From positions 930,001 to 994,000 of the forward strand of contig NZ_OBDO01000001.1 in assembly GCF_900215145.1 (NCBI RefSeq): a DNA stretch of 64,000 nucleotides, read 5' to 3'. Position 1 is the first letter of the stretch, and every line of letters begins with the position of its first letter. The notes beneath the pieces were generated by a model. It had not been told where the DNA came from, ran no database searches, and saw only the letters and a program-made list of their open reading frames with translations. Made by a program: the position numbers and the translations under genes. Source of the stretch: Geodermatophilus sabuli. Lineage in GTDB: Bacteria; Actinomycetota; Actinomycetes; Mycobacteriales; Geodermatophilaceae. Of the stretch, positions 1,168 through 61,605 are shown piece after piece.

Positions 1168-2271
1168 TTGGGTGACATGGTGCGCGCCGCGGTCCAGGTG
1201 GGCCCGCGCAAGATCGAGATCCAGGAGTTCCCCCGGCCGCAGGTCGGCCCGGACGACGGCCTGCTCCGCCTGGAGGCCAACGGTCTGTGCGGCAGCGACG
1301 TGGAGTTCTACAAGGGCCACGCCCGCCCGGACAGCCCGGCGTTCGTTCCCGGCCACGAGCCGATGGGCATCGTCGAGGAGGTCGGGGAGAACGCCGCCAA
1401 GCGCTGGGGCGTGCAGCCGGGGGACCGGGTCGCCCTCGAGGTGGTCATCCCCTGCCGCAACTGCTTCGACTGCCTGACCGGCAACTACCAGGCCTGCCGC
1501 AACCGCGTCGGCGGCCACGGCGTCACCCCGATCGACGTGGCGCCCTCGCTGTGGGGCGGGTTCGCCGAGTACATGTACCTGGCCCCGGGGTCCGTCGTCC
1601 ACAAGATCGACAACACCCTGCCGGTCGAGGTCGCGGCCATGTACAACTCGATGGGGGCCGGCGTCCGGTGGGCGCTGCACTACGGGCAGGTACAGCTCGG
1701 CGACACCGTGCTCGTGCTCGGTTCCGGCCTGCGGGGCATCGCCGCGGTCATCGCCGCCAAGGCCGCCGGTGCCGGCACGGTCGTCGTCACCGGGCTGGAG
1801 GCCGACGCGCACAAGCTGGACCTGGCCCGCGAGTTCGGCGCCGACCACGCCCTGGTCGTCGACGGCGACGCCGCCGAGGACGTCGTCGAGCGGGTGCAGG
1901 ACCTGACCGGCGGCCGCGGCGTCGACGTCAGCCTCGAGCTCACCCCGATGGCCGCGGGCCCCGTCACCGACGCGCTGCTGGCCACCAAGCACGGCGGCCG
2001 GGTCGTACTCGCCGGCATCAAGGGCAACCGGGAGATCCCGCTGCGCACGGACCTGATCATCAACCGGGCGCTGACCGTCCAGGGCGCGTTCGGCGTGGAT
2101 GCCAAGGCCATGGCCGAGGCGATCGCGCTCATCGAGTCCCGCCGCTTCCCGCTGGAGCGGCTGCACACCCACTCCTTCGGCCTGGACGACACCGCGCACG
2201 CCATCGAGGTCCTCGCCGGCGAGGTGCCCGGCGAGTCCGCCGTCCACGTCTCCGTCCACCCGAACCTCTGA
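1168..2271 (+). CDS. Zinc-binding alcohol dehydrogenase, MDR family
   Basis: Medium-chain dehydrogenase that should oxidise an alcohol with NAD(P)+. Catalytic-zinc ligands are in NGLCGSDVE and GHEPMGIVEEVG; the structural-zinc cysteines lie in CRNCFDCLTGNYQAC. The nucleotide-binding turn reads LGSGLRGIAAV, a variant of GxGxxG. The length (367 residues) is normal for the family. The start is uncertain: TTG at 1168 sits 5 bases after a good AGAGGA ribosome site, whereas ATG at 1177 is 14 bases away; the true protein may lack the first three residues. It is followed after 12 bases by an amidohydrolase, probably in one operon. The closest groups by motif are sorbitol/threonine dehydrogenase-like MDRs; the substrate is unknown. 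Confidence 0.85.
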   Translation: MGDMVRAAVQVGPRKIEIQEFPRPQVGPDDGLLRLEANGLCGSDVEFYKGHARPDSPAFVPGHEPMGIVEEVGENAAKRWGVQPGDRVALEVVIPCRNCFDCLTGNYQACRNRVGGHGVTPIDVAPSLWGGFAEYMYLAPGSVVHKIDNTLPVEVAAMYNSMGAGVRWALHYGQVQLGDTVLVLGSGLRGIAAVIAAKAAGAGTVVVTGLEADAHKLDLAREFGADHALVVDGDAAEDVVERVQDLTGGRGVDVSLELTPMAAGPVTDALLATKHGGRVVLAGIKGNREIPLRTDLIINRALTVQGAFGVDAKAMAEAIALIESRRFPLERLHTHSFGLDDTAHAIEVLAGEVPGESAVHVSVHPNL

Positions 2272-2283
2272 CCGGAGGACCGC

Positions 2284-3288
2284 ATGCTCATCGACACCCA
2301 CGCCCACCTGCTGCCGTACGACTACCCGGCCGATGCCCCCGAGTGCTTCCCCCGCATGGAGCCGGTGGACGGCGAGACCGCGCGCACGCTGCTGTTCGGC
2401 CAGATGCAGTTCAAGGCCAAGGACGTCTTCTTCGACGCCGAGCGCCGCATCGAGGCCATGGACGCCAACGGCGTCGACGTCGAGGTGCTCAGCCCGATGC
2501 CGCCACTGCTGCGCTACGACCTGCCGCTGGACGACGCGTTCTCCCTGGCCCGCCACGTCAACGAGTTCAGCGCCACGCTGGTGCAGGCCGACCCGACCCG
2601 GCTGATCGCCCTCGGCATGGTGCCGATGCAGGACCCGGACGCCGCGACCGCCGAGCTCCCCGCCATCAAGGAGCAGGGCCTCAAGGGCGTCGAGATCGCC
2701 TCGAACGTCCTGGGCTCCTCGATCGGCCACGAGAAGTTCCTGCCGTTCTTCGCCGAGGTGGAACGACTCGGCCTGTCGGTCTTCGTGCACGCCATGCCCT
2801 CGCCGACCGAGCGGCTGCCGATGTCGGCCATGGGCACCTACGTCGTGGGCGTCGAGGGCGCCTTCGCGGCCGCCTCGATGGTCGCCGGCGGAACCGCGGC
2901 CAAGTGCCCCGACCTGCGGATCTCCTTCAGCCACGCGGCCGGCGGCTACCCGCTGATGATCCCGCGCCACCAGTACTTCTGGGGCGGCTCGTGGAACGAG
3001 GAGCCGAAGAACCCCGAACGCGCCGTCATGCCCGACGACGGCCCCTCGCCGCTGGAGTACGCGCGGCGCTTCTACTACGACTCGCTGGTCTTCGACCGCC
3101 GGGCGCTGACCTACCTCATCGACCTGCTCGGCTCCGACCGGCTGCTGGTCGGCTCGGACTTCCCGGCCATGCCGCGGGAGGAGCCGGCCGGCCGGACGCT
3201 GAAGTCGATGGGCCTGGCCGACGACGTCCTCGAGGACATCCTCTGGAACAACGCCTGGCGCTGGCTGGGCATGGCGCCCACGCGCTGA
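2284..3288 (+). CDS. Amidohydrolase-2 family metal-dependent hydrolase/decarboxylase (ACMSD-like)
   Basis: A TIM-barrel metal enzyme of the family that includes aminocarboxymuconate-semialdehyde decarboxylase and related hydrolases. The N-terminus IDTHAHLLPYD carries the first metal-binding HxH; FVHAMPSPTERLP, FSHAAGGYP and the late VGSDFPAMPREEP supply the remaining His/Asp positions of the fold. The size (334 residues) is usual. The ATG at 2284 follows a GGAGGA ribosome site and lies 12 bases after the alcohol dehydrogenase stop, so the two are likely co-transcribed. It converges on the iclR-type gene with a strong hairpin between them. In these families the reaction ranges from decarboxylation of ring-cleavage products to hydrolysis; which applies here is not visible. 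Confidence 0.82.
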   Translation: MLIDTHAHLLPYDYPADAPECFPRMEPVDGETARTLLFGQMQFKAKDVFFDAERRIEAMDANGVDVEVLSPMPPLLRYDLPLDDAFSLARHVNEFSATLVQADPTRLIALGMVPMQDPDAATAELPAIKEQGLKGVEIASNVLGSSIGHEKFLPFFAEVERLGLSVFVHAMPSPTERLPMSAMGTYVVGVEGAFAAASMVAGGTAAKCPDLRISFSHAAGGYPLMIPRHQYFWGGSWNEEPKNPERAVMPDDGPSPLEYARRFYYDSLVFDRRALTYLIDLLGSDRLLVGSDFPAMPREEPAGRTLKSMGLADDVLEDILWNNAWRWLGMAPTR

Positions 3289-3293
3289 GTCCC

Positions 3294-3331
3294 GGGGGCG
3301 CCGGGACGCCGTCCGGAGTCCCGGCGCCCCC
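3294..3331. terminator. Bidirectional terminator-like hairpin between convergent genes
   Basis: A perfect 14-bp GC-rich stem (3294-3307 with 3318-3331) and 10-base loop sit in the 49-base gap between the amidohydrolase (+) and the IclR gene (-). There is no T-run, as is common in high-GC actinobacteria. Confidence 0.7.
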
Positions 3332-3337
3332 GCGTGG

Positions 3338-4183
3338 TCACGGCCGGCGGCGGACCGCCGGCTGGGCCGACGGGGCGCCCAGCGCGCGGGAGATGCCGCG
3401 GGCGGTGGCGTTGAGCACCGGCACCAGAGCCTGGGCCTGCGTCGCGCCTGCGGCCACCGTCACGCCGAGGGAGGCCACCACCTCGTCACCGGCACCCCGG
3501 ACGGGGACCGCGACGGCGAGGGCGGGCGCGTCGGCGGTCAGGTGGTTCTCCGCGGCGGCCACGCCGGTGCGGCGCACCTCGGCGAGGGTCCGGCGCAGCG
3601 CCGCCGGGTCGGTGATGGTGTACGGCGTGAAGGCCTTCAGCGGACCGCTGAGGACCTCCTCCTGCACCTGGGGGTCGGCGAAGGCCAGCAGCACCTGGCC
3701 GGTCCCGGTCGCGTGCAGCGGCCAGCGCCCGCCGATCCGGCTCATCAACCGCACGGCGCCCCGGGCGCGCAGCGCCTCGACGTAGACGACGTCGGACCCG
3801 TCCCGCACCCCGAGGACGACGTTGGCCCGCGTGGCCTGGTGCAGGTCGTCGACGTAGGGGACGGCGACCTCGCGCAGCTGCAACCCCTGGGGCGCCAGCG
3901 CACCCAGCTCGAGCAACCGCAGGCCGATGCCGTAGCGGCCGTCGGCGCCGCGCTCGAGGGCCCCCCACGCCCTGAGCTCGCCGACCAGGCGGTGCGTCGT
4001 GGTGAGCGACAGCCCCGAGCGGCGGCTGATCTCGCTGAGGGTGAGTGAGGCGTGGGCCGGACCGAACGCGTCCAGCACCGCCAGCACCCGGCTGGCGGCC
4101 GTCGCCGAGCCGCCGGCGTGCCCGGCCAGCCGGGTCGCTCCCGAGCGGTCGCTGCCCGGAGCCGGGCGGAGCTGTCTGGTCAT
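3338..4183 (-). CDS. IclR-family transcriptional regulator (module A)
   Basis: Regulator with an N-terminal winged helix (about residues 22-85; LTLSEISRRSGLSLTTTHR is the recognition region) and a C-terminal IclR effector domain with the hallmark LHATGTGQVLLAF. The family binds a small molecule in the C-terminal domain and controls an adjacent catabolic operon. It is divergent from the dpp-like transporter/UGSC operon starting at 4533, the likely target. The start chosen is ATG 4183 (MTRQLRPAPGSD); upstream in-frame codons would add an unconserved arginine/proline-rich tail. A close paralogue at 21022-21885 has the same relation to the second UGSC module, which supports a shared regulatory logic. 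Family assignment is secure; the effector is unknown. Confidence 0.9.
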   Translation of the reverse strand: MTRQLRPAPGSDRSGATRLAGHAGGSATAASRVLAVLDAFGPAHASLTLSEISRRSGLSLTTTHRLVGELRAWGALERGADGRYGIGLRLLELGALAPQGLQLREVAVPYVDDLHQATRANVVLGVRDGSDVVYVEALRARGAVRLMSRIGGRWPLHATGTGQVLLAFADPQVQEEVLSGPLKAFTPYTITDPAALRRTLAEVRRTGVAAAENHLTADAPALAVAVPVRGAGDEVVASLGVTVAAGATQAQALVPVLNATARGISRALGAPSAQPAVRRRP

Positions 4184-54598: not shown

Positions 54599-55195
54599 GT
54601 GAGCAGCGAGTCGATCCGGGTCCTGATCGCGGAGGACGAGGCGCTCATCCGCCTCGACCTCAAGGAGATGCTGGAGGAGGAGGGGTACAGCGTCGTCGCC
54701 GAGGTCGGTGACGGGCAGCAGGCCGTCGACCGTGCCACGGAGCTGCGTCCCGATCTGGTCATCCTCGACATCCAGATGCCGGTCCTCGACGGGCTGTCGG
54801 CCGCCGAGCAGATCGCCACCGCTCGGGTGGCGCCGGTCATCGTCCTCACCGCGTTCAGCCAGCGGGAGCTGGTGGAGCGGGCGCGGGACGCCGGCGCGAT
54901 GGCCTACCTGGTGAAGCCGTTCTCCAAGAACGACCTGGTGCCGGCGATCGAGGTCGCCCGGGCCCGCTTCGCGGAGATGTCCGCGCTCGACGGCGAGGTG
55001 CGGACGCTGGAGGAGCGACTGGAGACGCGCAAGGTCGTCGAGAAGGCCAAGGGCAAGCTGATGGCCGACCAGGGCATGACGGAGGCGGAGGCGTTCCGCT
55101 TCATCCAGCGGACGGCGATGAACGAGCGGACGTCGATGAAGGCGCTGGCGCAGCGCATCCTCGACCCGCAGGAGGCCGAGGCCCCCGCGGAGTGA
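54599..55195 (+). CDS. pdtaR: Response regulator with ANTAR RNA-binding domain (PdtaR-like)
   Basis: Two-component receiver (residues about 5-118) joined to an ANTAR domain (about 128-190) that binds RNA hairpins and prevents termination. The phospho-acceptor Asp is in LVILDIQMPVLDG, acidic pocket EDEA at 13-16, Lys in VKPFSK. ANTAR shows VEKAKGKLMADQGMTEAEAFRFIQ. 198 residues. In mycobacteria the orthologue acts with the kinase PdtaS and is found in the same pyk-polA neighbourhood; no kinase gene is in this window. Targets would be hairpin pairs in leaders, unknown here. Confidence 0.92.
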   Translation: MSSESIRVLIAEDEALIRLDLKEMLEEEGYSVVAEVGDGQQAVDRATELRPDLVILDIQMPVLDGLSAAEQIATARVAPVIVLTAFSQRELVERARDAGAMAYLVKPFSKNDLVPAIEVARARFAEMSALDGEVRTLEERLETRKVVEKAKGKLMADQGMTEAEAFRFIQRTAMNERTSMKALAQRILDPQEAEAPAE

Positions 55196-55383: not shown

Positions 55384-56724
55384 ATGCGCACAGGCATCCT
55401 CGCCCGGAGCGCCGCCATCAGCGCCGCGGCCCTGCTCGTACTGACCGCCTGCGGCGGCGGCGGCGACGACGAGGGCGGCACCGGCGGTGGTGGCGACGCC
55501 GCCAGCGGTGAGAAGCAGGTCAACGTCTACGGATCCGACGGCAACATGGGCAACGCCCTCGGTGAGCGGCTCTCCGGTGAGGGCGCGCTGGCCGGCATGA
55601 AGGGCACGCTGCCCCTGACCGAGCTGTCCGGTGACTTCCGCGACCGGCTGCTCGAGGTCACCCCGGATCTCGTCGACTACAACTACGCCGGAGAGACCTA
55701 CGACGCCATCGTCATCACGGCGCTGGCCGCGCAGATGGCCGGCACCAACGACGCCAACGTCTTCAAGGCCTTCGTCAACGGCGTCACCGTCGGCGGCGAC
55801 AAGTGCGAGGACTTCGCGTCCTGCCTGGAGATCGTCAACGGCGGCGGCAACCCCGACTACGACGGGCAGTCCGGCCCCCTGAGCTTCACCGACGCCGGCG
55901 AGCCGGCTCAGGCGAGCATCGGCATCCAGCAGTTCGGTCCGGACAACCGGATCGACGACAGCGCGACGCGCTACGTCCTGCCGGGTGACGAGGCGAACGC
56001 CACCACCGACGAGGGTCCGGCCCCGGCCCCGGCCGGCACGACCTCGCCGGAGCCGCTGATCATCGGCACGCTGCTGCCGGAGACCGGCAACCTGGCGTTC
56101 CTCGGCCCGCCGGAGATCGCCGGCGCCCAGCTGGCGGTCAACGACATCAACGCCGCCGGCGGCGTCCTGGGCCAGCAGGTGCAGCTCATCCAGCGCGACT
56201 CGGGTGACACGACCACCGACATCGCCACCCAGTCGGTCGACGCCCTGCTGCAGGCCGGCGCCAACGCCATCATCGGTGCGGCGTCCTCGGGTGTGAGCCT
56301 CACCGTCATCGACACCATCACCGGTGCCGGTGTCGCGCAGTTCTCGCCGGCCAACACGTCGGACCAGTTCACGACGTACAACGACAACGGGCTGTACTTC
56401 CGCACCGCCCCGCCGGACGTCCTGCAGGCCGAGGCGCTGGCCGACCTCATCATCGAGGACGGCAACAACACGGTCGGCATCCTCGCCCTCAACGACCCGT
56501 ACGGCACCGGGCTCGCGGAGAACGTCGCGAACAACCTGCAGTCCGCCGGTCTCGCGGAGGGCGACATCCAGTCGATCATCTACGACCCGCAGGCTGCGAA
56601 CTTCGACTCCGAGGTCCAGCAGATGGTCGACTTCAACCCCGACGCGATCGTGGTGATCGGGTTCGACGAGTCCTCGCGGATCATCGAGGGGCTCAACTCC
56701 AACGGGATCGGCCCGCAGCGCTGA
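55384..56724 (+). CDS. Branched-chain amino-acid-type substrate-binding lipoprotein, circularly permuted
   Basis: Extracellular receptor (type-1 periplasmic binding fold, LivJ-like) of the liv transporter. A lipoprotein signal ends in LTAC (Cys23). Residues about 43-200 match the C-terminal half of LivJ-like proteins (VYGSDGNMGNALGERL, DRLLEVTPDLVDYNYAGETYDA, CEDFASC, GPLSFTDAGEPAQASIGI). A Pro/Ala linker follows, then residues 225-446 match the N-terminal half (LIIGTLLPETGNLAFLGPPE, ANTSDQFTTYNDNGLYFRTA) and stop at GLNSNGIGPQR. In the family the order is the reverse. ATG 55384 has GGGAG upstream. The rest of the transporter is on the opposite strand beyond a small gene. Confidence 0.9.
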   Translation: MRTGILARSAAISAAALLVLTACGGGGDDEGGTGGGGDAASGEKQVNVYGSDGNMGNALGERLSGEGALAGMKGTLPLTELSGDFRDRLLEVTPDLVDYNYAGETYDAIVITALAAQMAGTNDANVFKAFVNGVTVGGDKCEDFASCLEIVNGGGNPDYDGQSGPLSFTDAGEPAQASIGIQQFGPDNRIDDSATRYVLPGDEANATTDEGPAPAPAGTTSPEPLIIGTLLPETGNLAFLGPPEIAGAQLAVNDINAAGGVLGQQVQLIQRDSGDTTTDIATQSVDALLQAGANAIIGAASSGVSLTVIDTITGAGVAQFSPANTSDQFTTYNDNGLYFRTAPPDVLQAEALADLIIEDGNNTVGILALNDPYGTGLAENVANNLQSAGLAEGDIQSIIYDPQAANFDSEVQQMVDFNPDAIVVIGFDESSRIIEGLNSNGIGPQR

Positions 56725-56756: not shown

Positions 56757-56768
56757 AGCGCGACCCCG

Positions 56769-56805
56769 CAGTGGCCCGGCACCGCACCACGGTGCCGGGC
56801 CACTG
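56769..56805. terminator. Second, bidirectional terminator hairpin
   Basis: A perfect 16-bp stem (56769-56784 with 56790-56805, 5-base loop) between convergent genes. Confidence 0.75.
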
Positions 56806-56817
56806 TGCTGTCGGGGG

Positions 56818-57237
56818 TCAGCGCTGCATCTGCTGGCCGGGCGGCTGCCAGTCCGAGGGGCGCCCGGTGTGGTTGGAGAACTCCACCGACCACCGCCACC
56901 AGCTGTGGTCCTCGGCGTGCTCCCAGGCGGTCAGGACGCCGACCTCGCCGCCGGGCAGCAGGACGGGCAGGCCCTGCATGGCGGCGTCCGGCCACACCTC
57001 GCTGCGGGTCACCGTCCCGCCGTCGAGCTGCAGCAGCGTGATGGGGGAGTAGTCGCCGTCCCGGTCGGAGTCGGCACGGACGACGACGCTGTCGTCCTCG
57101 GCGACCACCTCCACCTGCAGCCGCGCCGGCGCGGCGTGCACCAGCACGCGGGAGAAGCCGCCGGCGGTGGTGGCGCGCGCGAACTCCAGGCCGTTCATCC
57201 CGCCGTCGCGGGACCGCAGGTTCCACGTCCAGTTCAT
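56818..57237 (-). CDS. Conserved-looking protein of unknown function (139 residues)
   Basis: Not recognised. A compact, probably all-beta protein without signal peptide or membrane span: alternating strands such as RLQVEVVAEDDSVVVRAD and ITLLQLDGGTVTRSEVWP, and an aromatic cluster HSWWRWSVEFSNHTGRP near the end. ATG 57237 is the first start; no strong ribosome site is visible. It lies between the liv receptor (+) and the liv permease/ATPase operon (-), beyond a hairpin from livF, so it is probably transcribed separately. Confidence 0.65.
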   Translation of the reverse strand: MNWTWNLRSRDGGMNGLEFARATTAGGFSRVLVHAAPARLQVEVVAEDDSVVVRADSDRDGDYSPITLLQLDGGTVTRSEVWPDAAMQGLPVLLPGGEVGVLTAWEHAEDHSWWRWSVEFSNHTGRPSDWQPPGQQMQR

Positions 57238-57372: not shown

Positions 57373-58230
57373 TCAGTGGGCCTTGGCGAGAGTGCCCAGG
57401 TACAACTCGATGACCTTGGGGTCGTGCATCAGCGCGCTGCCGGTGTCGGTGTAGGCGTTGCGGCCCTGGTCGAGGACGTAGCCGCGGTCGCAGATCTGCA
57501 GGCACCGCCGGGCGTTCTGCTCGACCATGATGATCGAGACGCCGGTGGCGTTGATCCGGCGGCAGCGGATGAAGACCTCATCCTGGTACGCGGGGGAGAG
57601 TCCGGCCGACGGCTCGTCGAGCAGCAGCACCGACGGGTCCATCATCAGCGCCCGGCCCATGGCGACCATCTGCCGTTCGCCACCGGAGAGGGCGCCGGCC
57701 TTGCCCTTGCGCCGCTCGCCGAGCAGCGGGAACAGGTCGATGACGTAGTCGAAGCGCTCCTTGAACGTCTTCGGCCGCAGGTAGACGCCCATCTGCATGT
57801 TCTCCTCGATGGTGAGCGAGGGGAACACGTTGTTGTTCTGCGGCACGTACCCGACGCCGAGGGAGACCAGCCGGTGGGCGGGGGCGGAGGTGATGTCCTC
57901 CCCGCGCAGCGTGACCGCCCCCGAGCGCACCGGGATGAGCCCGAAGAGGGTCTTGAGCAGGGTGGACTTGCCGGCCCCGTTGGGACCGATGATCCCGACG
58001 AGCTCACCCTCCTGCAGGTAGAAGTCGCACCCCCGCAGGATGTTCACCCCCGGCACGTACCCGGCGACCAGGTCGTCGGCCCGCACGAGGGCGCCCTCGG
58101 CGAGGCGCACGTGCTCCTCACGGGTGGCCGCCTTCTCCGCGGGGGAGAGCTCGGTGGCCGGCGAGGCGGCCTGGGCGGCGCGGGTGAGGTCCTCGCCGGA
58201 CTCGTCGACCTCGAACAGGGGGTCGCTCAT
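57373..58230 (-). CDS. livF: Branched-chain amino-acid-type ABC transporter ATPase LivF
   Basis: ATPase of the importer. Walker A GPNGAGKST, signature LSGGERQMV, Walker B VLLLDEPSAGLS and the VEQNAR switch typical of LivF. 285 residues, with about 45 extra at the N-terminus (acidic, then LVRADDLVAGY). Its start overlaps livG's stop by 4 bases. Last gene of the livH-livM-livG-livF operon. Confidence 0.93.
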   Translation of the reverse strand: MSDPLFEVDESGEDLTRAAQAASPATELSPAEKAATREEHVRLAEGALVRADDLVAGYVPGVNILRGCDFYLQEGELVGIIGPNGAGKSTLLKTLFGLIPVRSGAVTLRGEDITSAPAHRLVSLGVGYVPQNNNVFPSLTIEENMQMGVYLRPKTFKERFDYVIDLFPLLGERRKGKAGALSGGERQMVAMGRALMMDPSVLLLDEPSAGLSPAYQDEVFIRCRRINATGVSIIMVEQNARRCLQICDRGYVLDQGRNAYTDTGSALMHDPKVIELYLGTLAKAH

Positions 58231-59255
58231 CGGTCGTTGCCCTCCTGACGGGTGGTGGAGTCCAGGATCGCGCCCTCGGTGTGTTCCTCGCGGGCGATGG
58301 CCTGCGAGGCCTCGGCGAGCACGCGGTCCTCCTCCTCGACGGTGAGCGGCGCGTCGTGGTGGGCGCCGAGGTAGGCGTCGACGACGGCCTGGTTCTGGCT
58401 GATCGACTCCGGCGGGCCCTCCGCGATGACCCGGCCGGCCGCCATGACGACGACCCAGTCACTGATGTCGCGGACGACGTCCATGTCGTGCTCGACGAAG
58501 ATCACCGTCATGCCCTCCTCGCGGAGGTCCTTGACGTGGCCGAGCAGGCTCTGCGTCAGCGCGGGGTTCACCCCGGCCATCGGCTCGTCGAGCATGACGA
58601 CCTTCGGGTTGCTCATCAGCGCCCGCGCCATCTCCAGCAGCTTGCGCTGACCGCCGGAGAGGGTGCCGGCGAAGTCGTCCTTCTTGGCGTCCAGCTTGAA
58701 CCGGGCGAGCAGGTCCATCGCCTTCTCGGTGTTCGACCGCTCCTGCGAACGCCAGGTGCCCGGCCACAGGGCGCCGAAGAAGCTCTCGCCCTTCTGCCCC
58801 TGCGCGCCGAGCAGCATGTTCTGCATGACGGTGAGCCGGGACAGCGCCTTGGTGAGCTGGAAGGTGCGGACGACGCCGAGACGGGCCACCTTGTGCGGGG
58901 CCAGGTCGGCCAGCGACCGTCCGTCGAACGTCCAGTTGCCGGTGTTGGGCTGGTCGAAGCCGGTCAGCAGGTTGAACAGCGTGGTCTTGCCGGCTCCGTT
59001 GGGCCCGATGAGGCCGGTGATGCCGCCGCGCTGGATCTCCAGGTGGTCGACCGCGACCGCCGTGAGCCCGCCGAACTGACGGGTCACGCCGTCGACCACG
59101 ACGATCGGGTCGGGCTTCGCGACGCCGACCTCCCAGGACACGTCCCGCAGGGCGGCCTGGGCCAGGCGGCGCGGCGGGTGGTGGGCGGCCTGGCCGAGGG
59201 ACGCCGCGTGCGCCCCGCTGCCGGCCGGCTCGGTGGGGGTGGGGTCAGCGGGCAT
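58227..59255 (-). CDS. livG: Branched-chain amino-acid-type ABC transporter ATPase LivG
   Basis: Second ATPase. Walker A GPNGAGKTT, signature LSGGQRKLLE, Walker B VVMLDEPMAGVNP, VEHDMD. 342 residues: about 45 extra N-terminal and 45 extra C-terminal residues (EEEDRVLAEASQAIAREEH) relative to typical LivG. ATG 59255 follows GAGGTG and overlaps livM by 11 bases; the core would also be reached from the internal VAKPDPIVVVDG. Confidence 0.92.
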   Translation of the reverse strand: MPADPTPTEPAGSGAHAASLGQAAHHPPRRLAQAALRDVSWEVGVAKPDPIVVVDGVTRQFGGLTAVAVDHLEIQRGGITGLIGPNGAGKTTLFNLLTGFDQPNTGNWTFDGRSLADLAPHKVARLGVVRTFQLTKALSRLTVMQNMLLGAQGQKGESFFGALWPGTWRSQERSNTEKAMDLLARFKLDAKKDDFAGTLSGGQRKLLEMARALMSNPKVVMLDEPMAGVNPALTQSLLGHVKDLREEGMTVIFVEHDMDVVRDISDWVVVMAAGRVIAEGPPESISQNQAVVDAYLGAHHDAPLTVEEEDRVLAEASQAIAREEHTEGAILDSTTRQEGNDR

Positions 59256-60243
59256 CGAGCATCACCTCTCGTCGGTCACCGAAGATGCCTTGTGGCCGGA
59301 AGACCAACAACAGCATGAGCCCGAGGCCGACCAGGACGAAGCGGATCTGCGCCACGTCGGTGGAGGTCAGCAGCCCCTCCGGGATGACGCCGTTCTCGAT
59401 CAGCGCCCGCAGGATGGCGTCGGCGAACTGCAGGATGAACAACAGGATCATCCCGCCCAGCACCGGACCCAGCACCCGCGCGGCACCGCCGAGGATGAGG
59501 GCGGCGTAGGCGAGGAACGTGTTGGCGTTCTGGTACTGGTCTGGGATCGCCGAGCCGGTGCCGACGGCGTAGACCATCCCGCCGAGAGCACCGATGATCC
59601 CGCCGAGCACCAGCGCCTGCATCTTGTAGACGTAGACGTTCTTGCCCAGCGCGCGGACGGCGTCCTCGTCCTCGCGGATCGACCGGACGACGCGGCCCCA
59701 CGGGCTGCGCATCAGGGCCCAGATGAGCAGGCAGGACAGGGTCACCAGCAGCCAGCCGACCACGGCCACCCAGAGCTCACCCCCGGACCAGCTGGTGCCG
59801 AGGATGCGGTAGCGCGCGTTGGTGGTCCACGGCGCGAGCGCCAGGAAGTCGCCGTTGAACGCCGAGATGCCCCGGGTGCCGTTGGTCAGGGGCGTGGCCG
59901 ACACGGACCGGAACAGCAGGCGTAGCCCCTCGGCCGCGGCGATGGTGACGATCGCGAGGTAGTCCGCGCGCAGCCGCAGCGTGGGCAGGCCGAGCAGCAG
60001 GGCGAGGACGATCGCCGCGAGCAGTCCGACGGCCACCCCGACCCAGAAGTCGAGGCCCCACTTGGTGACGGAGATGGCGATGCCGAACCCGCCGAGCATC
60101 GCGAAGGCGATCTGCCCGAAGTTGAGCAGGCCGGTGTAGCCGAACTGCACGTTGATGCCGACGGCCAGCAGGACGAAGAAGATCGCCTGGAACCCCAGGG
60201 CCGCCTTGCCGGCGACCGCGATGGCGTCGATGACTTCACTCAT
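59245..60243 (-). CDS. livM: Branched-chain amino-acid-type ABC transporter permease LivM
   Basis: Permease with about ten hydrophobic helices. Family blocks: GYTGLLNFGQIAFAMLGGFG, LRLRADYLAIVTIAAAEGLR, and the ATPase-docking loop RSIREDEDAVRALGKNVY. 332 residues. ATG 60243 is 3 bases after livH's stop. It pairs with LivH to form the channel. Confidence 0.93.
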   Translation of the reverse strand: MSEVIDAIAVAGKAALGFQAIFFVLLAVGINVQFGYTGLLNFGQIAFAMLGGFGIAISVTKWGLDFWVGVAVGLLAAIVLALLLGLPTLRLRADYLAIVTIAAAEGLRLLFRSVSATPLTNGTRGISAFNGDFLALAPWTTNARYRILGTSWSGGELWVAVVGWLLVTLSCLLIWALMRSPWGRVVRSIREDEDAVRALGKNVYVYKMQALVLGGIIGALGGMVYAVGTGSAIPDQYQNANTFLAYAALILGGAARVLGPVLGGMILLFILQFADAILRALIENGVIPEGLLTSTDVAQIRFVLVGLGLMLLLVFRPQGIFGDRREVMLDAR

Positions 60244-60246
60244 GGG

Positions 60247-61605
60247 TCAGCCCACCCGGACGCGGCTGCCCAGGATCCCCTGGGGCCGGATGACGAGGAT
60301 GACGATCAGCAGCAGCAGTCCGCCGACGTACTTGACGTCGTTCGGGATGACGAGCGTCGACATCTGGACGAAGACGCCGACGACGAGGCTGCCCAGGAGG
60401 GCGCCGTACGCGGTCCCGAGACCGCCGAGGGTGACGCCGGCGAACATGAGCAGCAGCAGGCGGAAGCCCATGTCCCACTGCACCTGGTCGGACAGGCCCA
60501 GGAGCACGCCGCCGAGGGCGGCGAGTGCCCCACCCATCATCCAGACGACGAGGATGACCCGGTTGACGTCGATGCCGGAGGAGGCGGCGAGGTCCCGGTT
60601 GTCGGAGACCGCGCGCATCGCCTTGCCGATCTTCGTGCGCTGCAGCATGAGCGCCACCAGGATGAGCACGACGATCGAGATGACCACCGAGGCGAGGTCG
60701 GCGCCGGTCATCCGGAACAGGCCGTAGTCGACGGCCCGGCCGCCTCCGACGTCCTGGTAGGCGTTGGACCGGCCGCCGTACACCAGCTGGATCAGGTAGC
60801 GCAGCATCAGCGACAGGCCGATCGAGACGACCAGCGCGGCGATGAGCCCGGTGCCGCGGCGACGCAGGGGGCGCCACAGGGCCAGCTCGTTGAGTGCGCC
60901 GACCGCAGCTCCCACGAGCATCGCGATCAACGCCGCCACGATGAGGGGGACGCCGCCCTGGACGTTGATGTACCAGGCGGCGACCGCGCCGATGGTGACC
61001 AGCTCGCCGTGGGCGAAGTTGGTCAGGCCCGTCGTCCCGAAGATCAGCGACAGGCCGACGGCGCACATGGCGATGAGCAGGCCGAACCGGATGCCGTCGA
61101 CGAGCAGCTGGACGGCGCGGACGGTGCCGCCGCCGCCCTCCCGGCTGCCGTCGTTGAGGCCGATGATCGCCGCCTGCCGGCGGCCCTCCTCGACGGTGAC
61201 GGTGCGGCTGTCCTCGCCGGAGAGGACCACGCCCTCGGGCAGGTCGTCGGCCTCGATGGAGACGACGTACTCACCGGGTCCGGGGAGGTCCACCTCCCAG
61301 CGGCCCTGCTCGTCGGTCTCGACGGAGTCGACCTCCTGGCCGCTGGCCGTGGTGACGGTGATCTCCACGCCCTCGATCGGGCCGCTGCGGCTGGTCTGCA
61401 GGGTGCCCACCAGCTGCTCGCCCTCGGCCTGGGCGATGCCGGGGACGATCATGGCGAGACCCAGCCCGAAGGCGGCGACGAGGAGGAGCCGGACCAGGGT
61501 GCGCTGCCGAGCGCCCGGGCGCGGGCGACCCGCGGTCCCGGCGGGGTCCTCGACGGTTCCTGGTCGTCGACCGCGTCGTGGGACACGGCCTGGAGCGTGC
61601 GTCAC
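60247..61605 (-). CDS. livH: Branched-chain amino-acid-type permease LivH fused to an N-terminal extracellular beta domain
   Basis: The C-terminal 290 residues are a LivH permease (GLSLIFGTTGLTNFAHGELVT; docking loop RAVSDNRDLAASSGIDV). Before it is an Arg/Pro-rich start, a signal-like segment RTLVRLLLVAAFGLGLAMIVP ending in AQA (about 55-61), and a beta-sandwich of about 95 residues (GPIEGVEITVTTASGQEV, DEQGRWEVDLPGPGEYVVSI) resembling carboxypeptidase-regulatory/prealbumin-like domains. 452 residues against about 290 for LivH alone. GTG 61605 has AGGAGG 4-5 bases upstream. First gene of the operon. Confidence 0.9.
   Translation of the reverse strand: MTHAPGRVPRRGRRPGTVEDPAGTAGRPRPGARQRTLVRLLLVAAFGLGLAMIVPGIAQAEGEQLVGTLQTSRSGPIEGVEITVTTASGQEVDSVETDEQGRWEVDLPGPGEYVVSIEADDLPEGVVLSGEDSRTVTVEEGRRQAAIIGLNDGSREGGGGTVRAVQLLVDGIRFGLLIAMCAVGLSLIFGTTGLTNFAHGELVTIGAVAAWYINVQGGVPLIVAALIAMLVGAAVGALNELALWRPLRRRGTGLIAALVVSIGLSLMLRYLIQLVYGGRSNAYQDVGGGRAVDYGLFRMTGADLASVVISIVVLILVALMLQRTKIGKAMRAVSDNRDLAASSGIDVNRVILVVWMMGGALAALGGVLLGLSDQVQWDMGFRLLLLMFAGVTLGGLGTAYGALLGSLVVGVFVQMSTLVIPNDVKYVGGLLLLIVILVIRPQGILGSRVRVG

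Follow-up and report, generated by a model that had tools for sequence, protein, structure and literature searches.

A circularly permuted LivJ-type receptor in Geodermatophilaceae, and its permuted positional orthologues in other Actinomycetota

Is a substrate-binding lipoprotein whose two parts stand in the reverse of the usual order a genuine circular permutation, and if it is, did the permutation happen once or repeatedly? The question is raised by a gene of Geodermatophilus sabuli in a 64-kb window (the whole stretch of DNA that was analysed), the relevant features of which are collected in Table 1. The initial annotation, made from the sequence alone, had described the product as a LivJ-type receptor carrying its C-terminal half first and its N-terminal half after a linker, with the reading frame intact and the signal in place. 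The frame and signal are as described: the lipobox-like LTAC occupies residues 20-23 by sequence reading, and Cys23 is invariant in 17 of 17 aligned family members. The two parts were likewise matched in the order given, at residues of about 44-200 and 225-446.

Table 1. Features of the receptor locus (positions in the window)
Feature	Position	Strand	Basis
Response regulator with ANTAR domain, conserved upstream neighbour	54605..55195	+	Pfam Response_reg + ANTAR; synteny
Permuted receptor ORF	55384-56724	+	446 aa plus stop, frame intact
Signal peptide and lipobox (residues 1-23, ...VLTAC)	55384..55452	+	Sequence reading
Gly/Ser/Asp-rich spacer behind lipid anchor (residues 24-43)	55453..55512	+	Sequence; pLDDT <50 at residues 1-41
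LivJ-type C-terminal part, relocated to the front (residues 44-200), starting with KQVNVYGSDGN strand and loop	55513..55983	+	Half-by-half mapping; re-ordered profile and 4gnr matches
Pro/Ala/Thr linker, old C-terminus to old N-terminus (residues 201-224)	55984..56055	+	Sequence
LivJ-type N-terminal part (residues 225-446), LIIGTLLPETG to GLNSNGIGPQR, GIGPQR at the cut	56056..56721	+	PF13458 4-216 of 343; 4gnr chain 5-221
Very stable hairpin without T-run, 3' of receptor gene, near convergent DUF7712 gene	56769..56806	+	Folding energy
DUF7712 protein, between receptor and LivF	56818-57237	-	Pfam E 1e-34
LivF-like ATPase, convergent neighbour	57373..58230	-	ABC_tran; synteny
LivG-like ATPase	58227..59255	-	ABC_tran + BCA_ABC_TP_C
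LivM-like permease	59245..60243	-	BPD_transp_2
LivH-like permease with extra N-terminal CarboxypepD_reg-like domain	60247..61605	-	BPD_transp_2 at 168-437; CarboxypepD_reg 65-141, E 5.4e-8

The match to the LivJ-type (Peripla_BP_6) family profile is significant, and the standard N-to-C order of that profile is not kept. In the native protein, residues 227-443 correspond to positions 4-216 of the 343 positions of Pfam PF13458 and the match stops there, whereas the protein re-ordered in silico (residues 225-444 followed by 46-200) gives a single run in which residues 3-310 cover profile positions 4-312, the score rising from 118.7 to 129.1 bits and the E value improving from 5.9e-34 to 4e-37; the swap of profile coordinates by which the annotation had proposed to check its reading is therefore found. 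The solved LivJ structure 4gnr behaves in the same way, residues 222-442 of the native protein matching chain positions 5-221 and residues 3-294 of the re-ordered protein matching chain positions 10-300. The C-terminal part by itself matches nothing significant in Pfam or PDB, and its identity follows from the normal-order orthologues together with the gain in score on re-ordering. On a normal-order relative (L052), the two halves of the window protein map at 76-292 and 295-425, only two residues apart, so that the circle closes as annotated, with GIGPQ and KQVNVYGSDGN as the residues that are adjacent in normal members.

The AlphaFold2 model of the window protein is confident (pLDDT 87.5, pTM 0.85), with block means of 93 to 97 over residues 201-230, which include the linker, and the sequential aligner Foldseek paired roughly half of its length with LivJ structures. 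The receptor most likely folds like a normal one. That the window protein is a circularly permuted LivJ-type receptor is supported by the coordinates of its profile matches, by orthologues of normal order at this locus, by the retention of the permuted order in 92 of 112 genomes of the family and by a predicted fold of high confidence. Since the best Pfam match spans only about half of such proteins, routine annotation can hide them. In 48 aligned permuted proteins the cysteines at residues 141 and 147 (numbering of P0001) are invariant and perhaps form a disulfide.

The annotation had also placed a terminator after the gene. A consensus terminator (stem plus T-run) was looked for downstream of the receptor gene and none was found; what does stand there is the hairpin of Table 1 (minimum free energy -51.9 kcal/mol, z -5.7 for 56760-56825), possibly a terminator between two convergent units. 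Rfam families gave no match at gathering threshold anywhere in the 64-kb window, and RNA regulation through a known family was accordingly dropped.

The permuted order is conserved among relatives. A permuted query matches 12 of 12 relatives of the same genus over residues 1-446 and finds near-full-length colinear matches in 92 of 112 Geodermatophilaceae genomes, among them the one from which the window comes. Matches with an E value of 1e-30 or below were obtained in 95 of the 112 genomes, in the remaining three as fragments only, and 86 of the 95 contain just one such match. The other 17 assemblies hold no close copy of either order: 13 of them have a completeness of 90% or more and a contamination of 5% or less, and a second search of all 17, made with the re-ordered query at E 1e-5, gave distant matches only (best E 9.8e-12) in nine and none in eight, by which overlooked normal copies within the family are rejected. 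Close relatives with the standard order at this locus, which would have spoken against the annotation, were thus not encountered inside the family. Across 22 copies from the genus, NG86 dN/dS has a median of 0.43 and a maximum of 0.64 and lies below 1 in 231 of 231 pairs; the receptor is under constraint, moderate by this measure. Additional copies do occur in the family. Three genomes of genus g17 also possess a normal-order paralogue (L052, L053, L054), about 46% identical in the N-half and accompanied by its own liv genes, genus g16 of the window's family (f1) has second permuted copies apart from liv genes (L055, L056, L060), and Klenkia taihuensis and K. brasiliensis have two permuted copies each among the loci found in named genomes.

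At the window locus the receptor is encoded together with LivF, LivG, LivM and LivH, and with a PdtaR-like response regulator. We infer that the receptor would serve the adjacent LivFGMH importer, and its putative ligand is probably a branched-chain amino acid or a related amide. The extra domain of LivH (residues 65-141) precedes the permease domain, is probably exported and could touch the receptor; sequence similar to the DUF7712 protein was seen at only one (L058) of 40 loci. Among 16 permuted loci of the family, the regulator and/or liv genes stand next to the receptor in 12, the other four being one on a contig of only 3.9 kb (L050) and three second copies situated elsewhere (L055, L056, L060). 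Normal-order orthologues from other families (L129-L138) have livFGMH nearby in 10 of 10 cases; nine of these ten (L129-L137) also have the regulator upstream, and in L138 it lies beyond livH. As the same genes surround normal-order and permuted receptors, the permuted gene is the positional orthologue of the normal receptor.

To follow this receptor beyond the family, the re-ordered query was searched across the order, class and phylum (298, 394 and 296 genomes, respectively) and within families, and the order of each locus was checked half by half. Normal-order orthologues up to 61% identical were recovered, and among 203 distinct ORFs in which both halves were identified, 89 proved to be permuted; 34 of the 89 come from outside the window's family. 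Permuted receptors occur in 1 of 5 genomes of f13, in six loci of genera g27 and g44 of f16 (L138, of genus g71 in the same family, is normal), in 10 of 149 genomes of f41 by two-piece matches, all 10 loci having been checked, in eight loci of genus g160 of f49 plus one (L218) that is cut by the end of its fetched stretch, and in 4 of 4 genomes of f39; receptors cut at another site occur in 4 of the 296 genomes of the phylum search (f68, f81 twice, f122). Both orders coexist within single genera (g160 of f49; g105, g117 and g175 of f41). A scan of contigs of named genomes gave 80 loci, and all 79 with both halves are permuted, a proportion that is no measure of prevalence as the permuted query favours such copies; the cut is that of the window protein in 55 of them and the second one in 24, the latter including Salsipaludibacter albus and records labelled Acidimicrobiaceae, Ilumatobacteraceae and Acidimicrobiia. 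The permutation is therefore recurrent, positional orthologues being permuted in at least three further groups, a recurrence that the initial annotation had not noticed.

Two cut sites can be distinguished, about 18-20 residues apart, before and after the GSDGN loop. Class A proteins, the window type, end with GIGP and start before VYGSDGN; class B proteins start at about LAGMKGT and end with ...GIGPQDKMVYGVDGNMGNALGEDF. A strand-helix module of about 20 residues containing the loop consequently stands at the front in class A and at the back in class B, and AlphaFold2 places it at residues 47-62 of the window protein and 441-458 of a class B protein (pLDDT 84.8, pTM 0.81). The loop aligns to the GGDG/SGDG segments of 4gnr and 3ipc and presumably holds the acidic residue for the amino group of the ligand in LivJ-type receptors. 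Among 168 permuted rows, drawn from two sets that overlap in genomes, the module is at the front only in 139, at the end only in 28 and at neither end in one (the truncated L218). No row has it at both ends, by which a single origin with redundant ends, one of them later lost, is rejected.

The other class A groups at this position have the regulator and/or liv genes as neighbours in 5 of 5 (L119-L123), 9 of 9 (L170-L178) and 6 of 6 loci (L226-L228 and L233-L235), with the regulator alone visible at L235, where the contig ends. At the class B loci (L196-L199) livFGMH adjoins in 4 of 4, and the regulator lies within the fetched stretch in none of the four. The permuted f16 loci (L124-L128, L210) are away from both regulator and liv genes in 6 of 6 examined; these copies sit on a long branch, and a changed function is possible.

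To estimate the number of origins, the 203 ORFs were reduced to 112 rows by down-sampling the window's family and crowded genera, and then to 64 rows chosen by the author, distant normal paralogues (L020, L061, L052-L054) having been removed before the trees were built. The tree built from these 64 proteins in re-ordered form, 25 of them permuted and 39 normal, contains six order changes, at least five of them forced by well-supported branches, and a single order change is found in 0 of 200 bootstrap trees. Approximately unbiased (AU) tests, whose p values are somewhat optimistic because the groups were named after the first trees had been seen, reject one clade of all permuted receptors (p 4.5e-10, in a quick tree of 112 rows), one clade of class A (p 2.7e-5, 64 rows) and the unions f41+f49+f39 (p 0.0023), f1+f13+f16+f49+f39 (p 2.2e-4), f1+f13+f16+class B (p 0.0049) and f39+f49+class B (p 0.0013). 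The tests do not reject a single clade of f1+f13+f16 (p 0.565), nor one of class B (p 0.309). The permuted f41 receptors form a clade (100/99) nested within a clade confined to f41 in which normal copies occur as well. Trees of single halves are less well supported, with seven order changes each, of which supported branches force only two (N-half) and four (C-half). The permuted f41 rows come together as a clade with the C-half but not with the N-half, f39+f49 the other way round, and f1+f13+f16 and class B with neither; permuted and normal f41 rows group together in both trees (100/99 in the N-half, 65/34 in the C-half).

These results support four permuted groups, f1/f13/f16, f39/f49, f41 and class B, and lend support to at least four separate origins, as long as neither reversion nor transfer of the gene is assumed. 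Each group would then represent a separate gain; counts of order changes cannot separate gain from loss, and so leave room for reversions or transfer.

A fused tandem duplication followed by loss of the outer halves was the route suggested by the annotation, and it is supported indirectly. Head-to-tail tandem copies were met at six fetched loci, five with two normal receptors (L135, L136, L185, L231, L232) and one with a permuted receptor followed by a normal one (L224). At the latter (genome G1130, 1287-3902) the pair lies between the regulator and livFGMH, and the permuted copy is divergent. The linkers of permuted proteins resemble a normal C-terminal tail joined to the segment that normally precedes strand 1, as in L171 (...DYEEGEV...PDGDGTFTVGSLLPQTG) compared with the normal tail ...EYVTGVVE and normal start KGDGVLTVGTLLPSTG of L141. 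The fused double receptor itself was not found: among 4,715 ORFs with a minimum length of 250 aa from 325 fetched loci (both halves present in 323 of them, loci that recur having been kept), none holds a half twice. Permutation by duplication is a model given in the background of PMC2096629. Tandem head-to-tail copies and linkers resembling fused old ends are what our loci have in common with it and make them fit it; they differ from the model as given there in that the pattern recurs in natural orthologues and in that the fused intermediate is not seen in the fetched loci. Tandem duplication with loss of outer parts seems the most likely origin of the permutation.

Very probably, then, the window encodes a genuine, conserved, permuted LivJ-type receptor of the adjacent LivFGMH importer that arose in place, related receptors having been permuted separately in at least four groups. 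Tandem receptor copies at the locus would have fused and lost their outer parts, leaving a permuted receptor in the same position, its old ends joined by a short linker and its new ends in front of the strand running into the GSDGN loop. The lipid anchor would thereby attach beside this loop instead of at strand 1, the protein would fold like the normal one and its clamshell motion should stay intact. Related Actinomycetota receptors at the same locus would have been permuted separately, at the window's cut or some 18-20 residues further on. With somewhat less assurance, though we lean towards it, the locus of the ANTAR regulator and livFGMH could be a permutation hot spot, in which frequent tandem duplication and selected re-anchoring by the ligand loop led to fixation at least four times independently, at two cut sites flanking the GSDGN loop, with the normal receptor replaced where it stood.

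An assembly rearrangement or a decayed gene is scarcely conceivable: we found no point in its favour, the permuted order is shared by those 92 separately assembled genomes and by all 79 order-tested named loci (to which the permuted query was biased), the frames are intact and no dN/dS value reaches 1, so that relatives and constraint together reject both. An unlikely, though not negligible, alternative is that one ancient permutation was followed by reversions to normal order, themselves by way of tandem duplication, or by horizontal gene replacement at the locus. All class A groups share one cut site, the AU tests leave f1+f13+f16 or class B unrejected as single clades, the trees of single halves recover the groups only partly, and reversion through tandem duplication would be mechanistically possible; PMC4990184 suggests horizontal spread for homologues of another permuted binding protein, TpMglB-2. 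Yet the permuted f41 clade lies inside an f41-only clade with normal copies, permuted and normal f41 receptors group in both single-half trees (although at 65/34 in the C-half), every tested union across the four groups is rejected, and the class B cut differs. Three normal rows near the window's group (L062, L064, L068), moreover, have no leftover linker at the junction.

It is also quite unlikely that the permuted protein has ceased to be the receptor of the transporter and acts instead as a tethered sensor or a store of ligand, feeding, for example, the pathway of the ANTAR regulator. The conservation of a response regulator with this domain next to the gene would suit such a role, as would the position of the six examined f16 loci and the second copies of f1 away from liv genes. 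However, liv genes and/or the regulator adjoin the receptor at 12 of the family's 16 loci and at all 20 loci of the other class A groups at this position, most matching family genomes (86 of 95) have a single match at E 1e-30, and normal-order orthologues occupy the same place.

Compared with known LivJ and Leu-Ile-Val-binding proteins (Peripla_BP_6, HAAT-type; 4gnr, 4n0q, 1z15), the window receptor has homologous parts, a lipoprotein export signal and adjacent livFGMH genes, and differs in its swapped parts, its new linker and its new ends beside the GSDGN loop. A natural permutation is already known from TpMglB-2 (Tp0684) of Treponema, described in PMC4990184 as a lipid-anchored, two-lobed cluster-B (type I) binding protein and shown there to bind glucose, for which the class name 'Type Ic / Cluster Bc' was proposed and which has relatives in treponemes and Gram-positive bacteria. 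Its first three N-lobe strands stand at the end of the chain, the permuted part is of unclear homology, and tethering is discussed by its authors as a possible reason for the permutation (PMC4990184). The window receptor resembles it in being, here by sequence, a circularly permuted cluster-B binding protein. As far as that description goes, it departs from TpMglB-2 in that the whole N-terminal stretch of about 220 residues, not three N-lobe strands, follows the C-terminal part, in being LivJ-type and not a sugar receptor, in having cuts that flank the GSDGN loop and clear homology of both parts, and in the several separate origins indicated at one locus. No glucose-binding protein is among the 10 matches listed for the window protein against PDB sequences (E limit 1e-9). 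Judged by titles and the starts of abstracts, no report of a naturally permuted LivJ-type receptor was found in the open-licence literature among the matches listed, nor were the LivJ-type permutation, the second cut site or repeated occurrence in place found there. Natural permutation of a cluster-B protein is thus already on record with TpMglB-2 (PMC4990184), and what looks new is its recurrence in place.

What the locus offers is a view of the process. Natural circular permutations usually become visible only long after the event, and at this locus an orthologous receptor is met in normal, tandem and permuted form across the phylum. With these coexisting forms, two cuts and both orders within genera, the duplication model, the tolerance of two-lobed receptors to new ends and the possible advantage of moving the anchor become directly testable. 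As binding proteins are common biosensor scaffolds, the permuted receptors could also guide sensor design. Through this recurrent swap, a normally rare evolutionary event becomes open to study.
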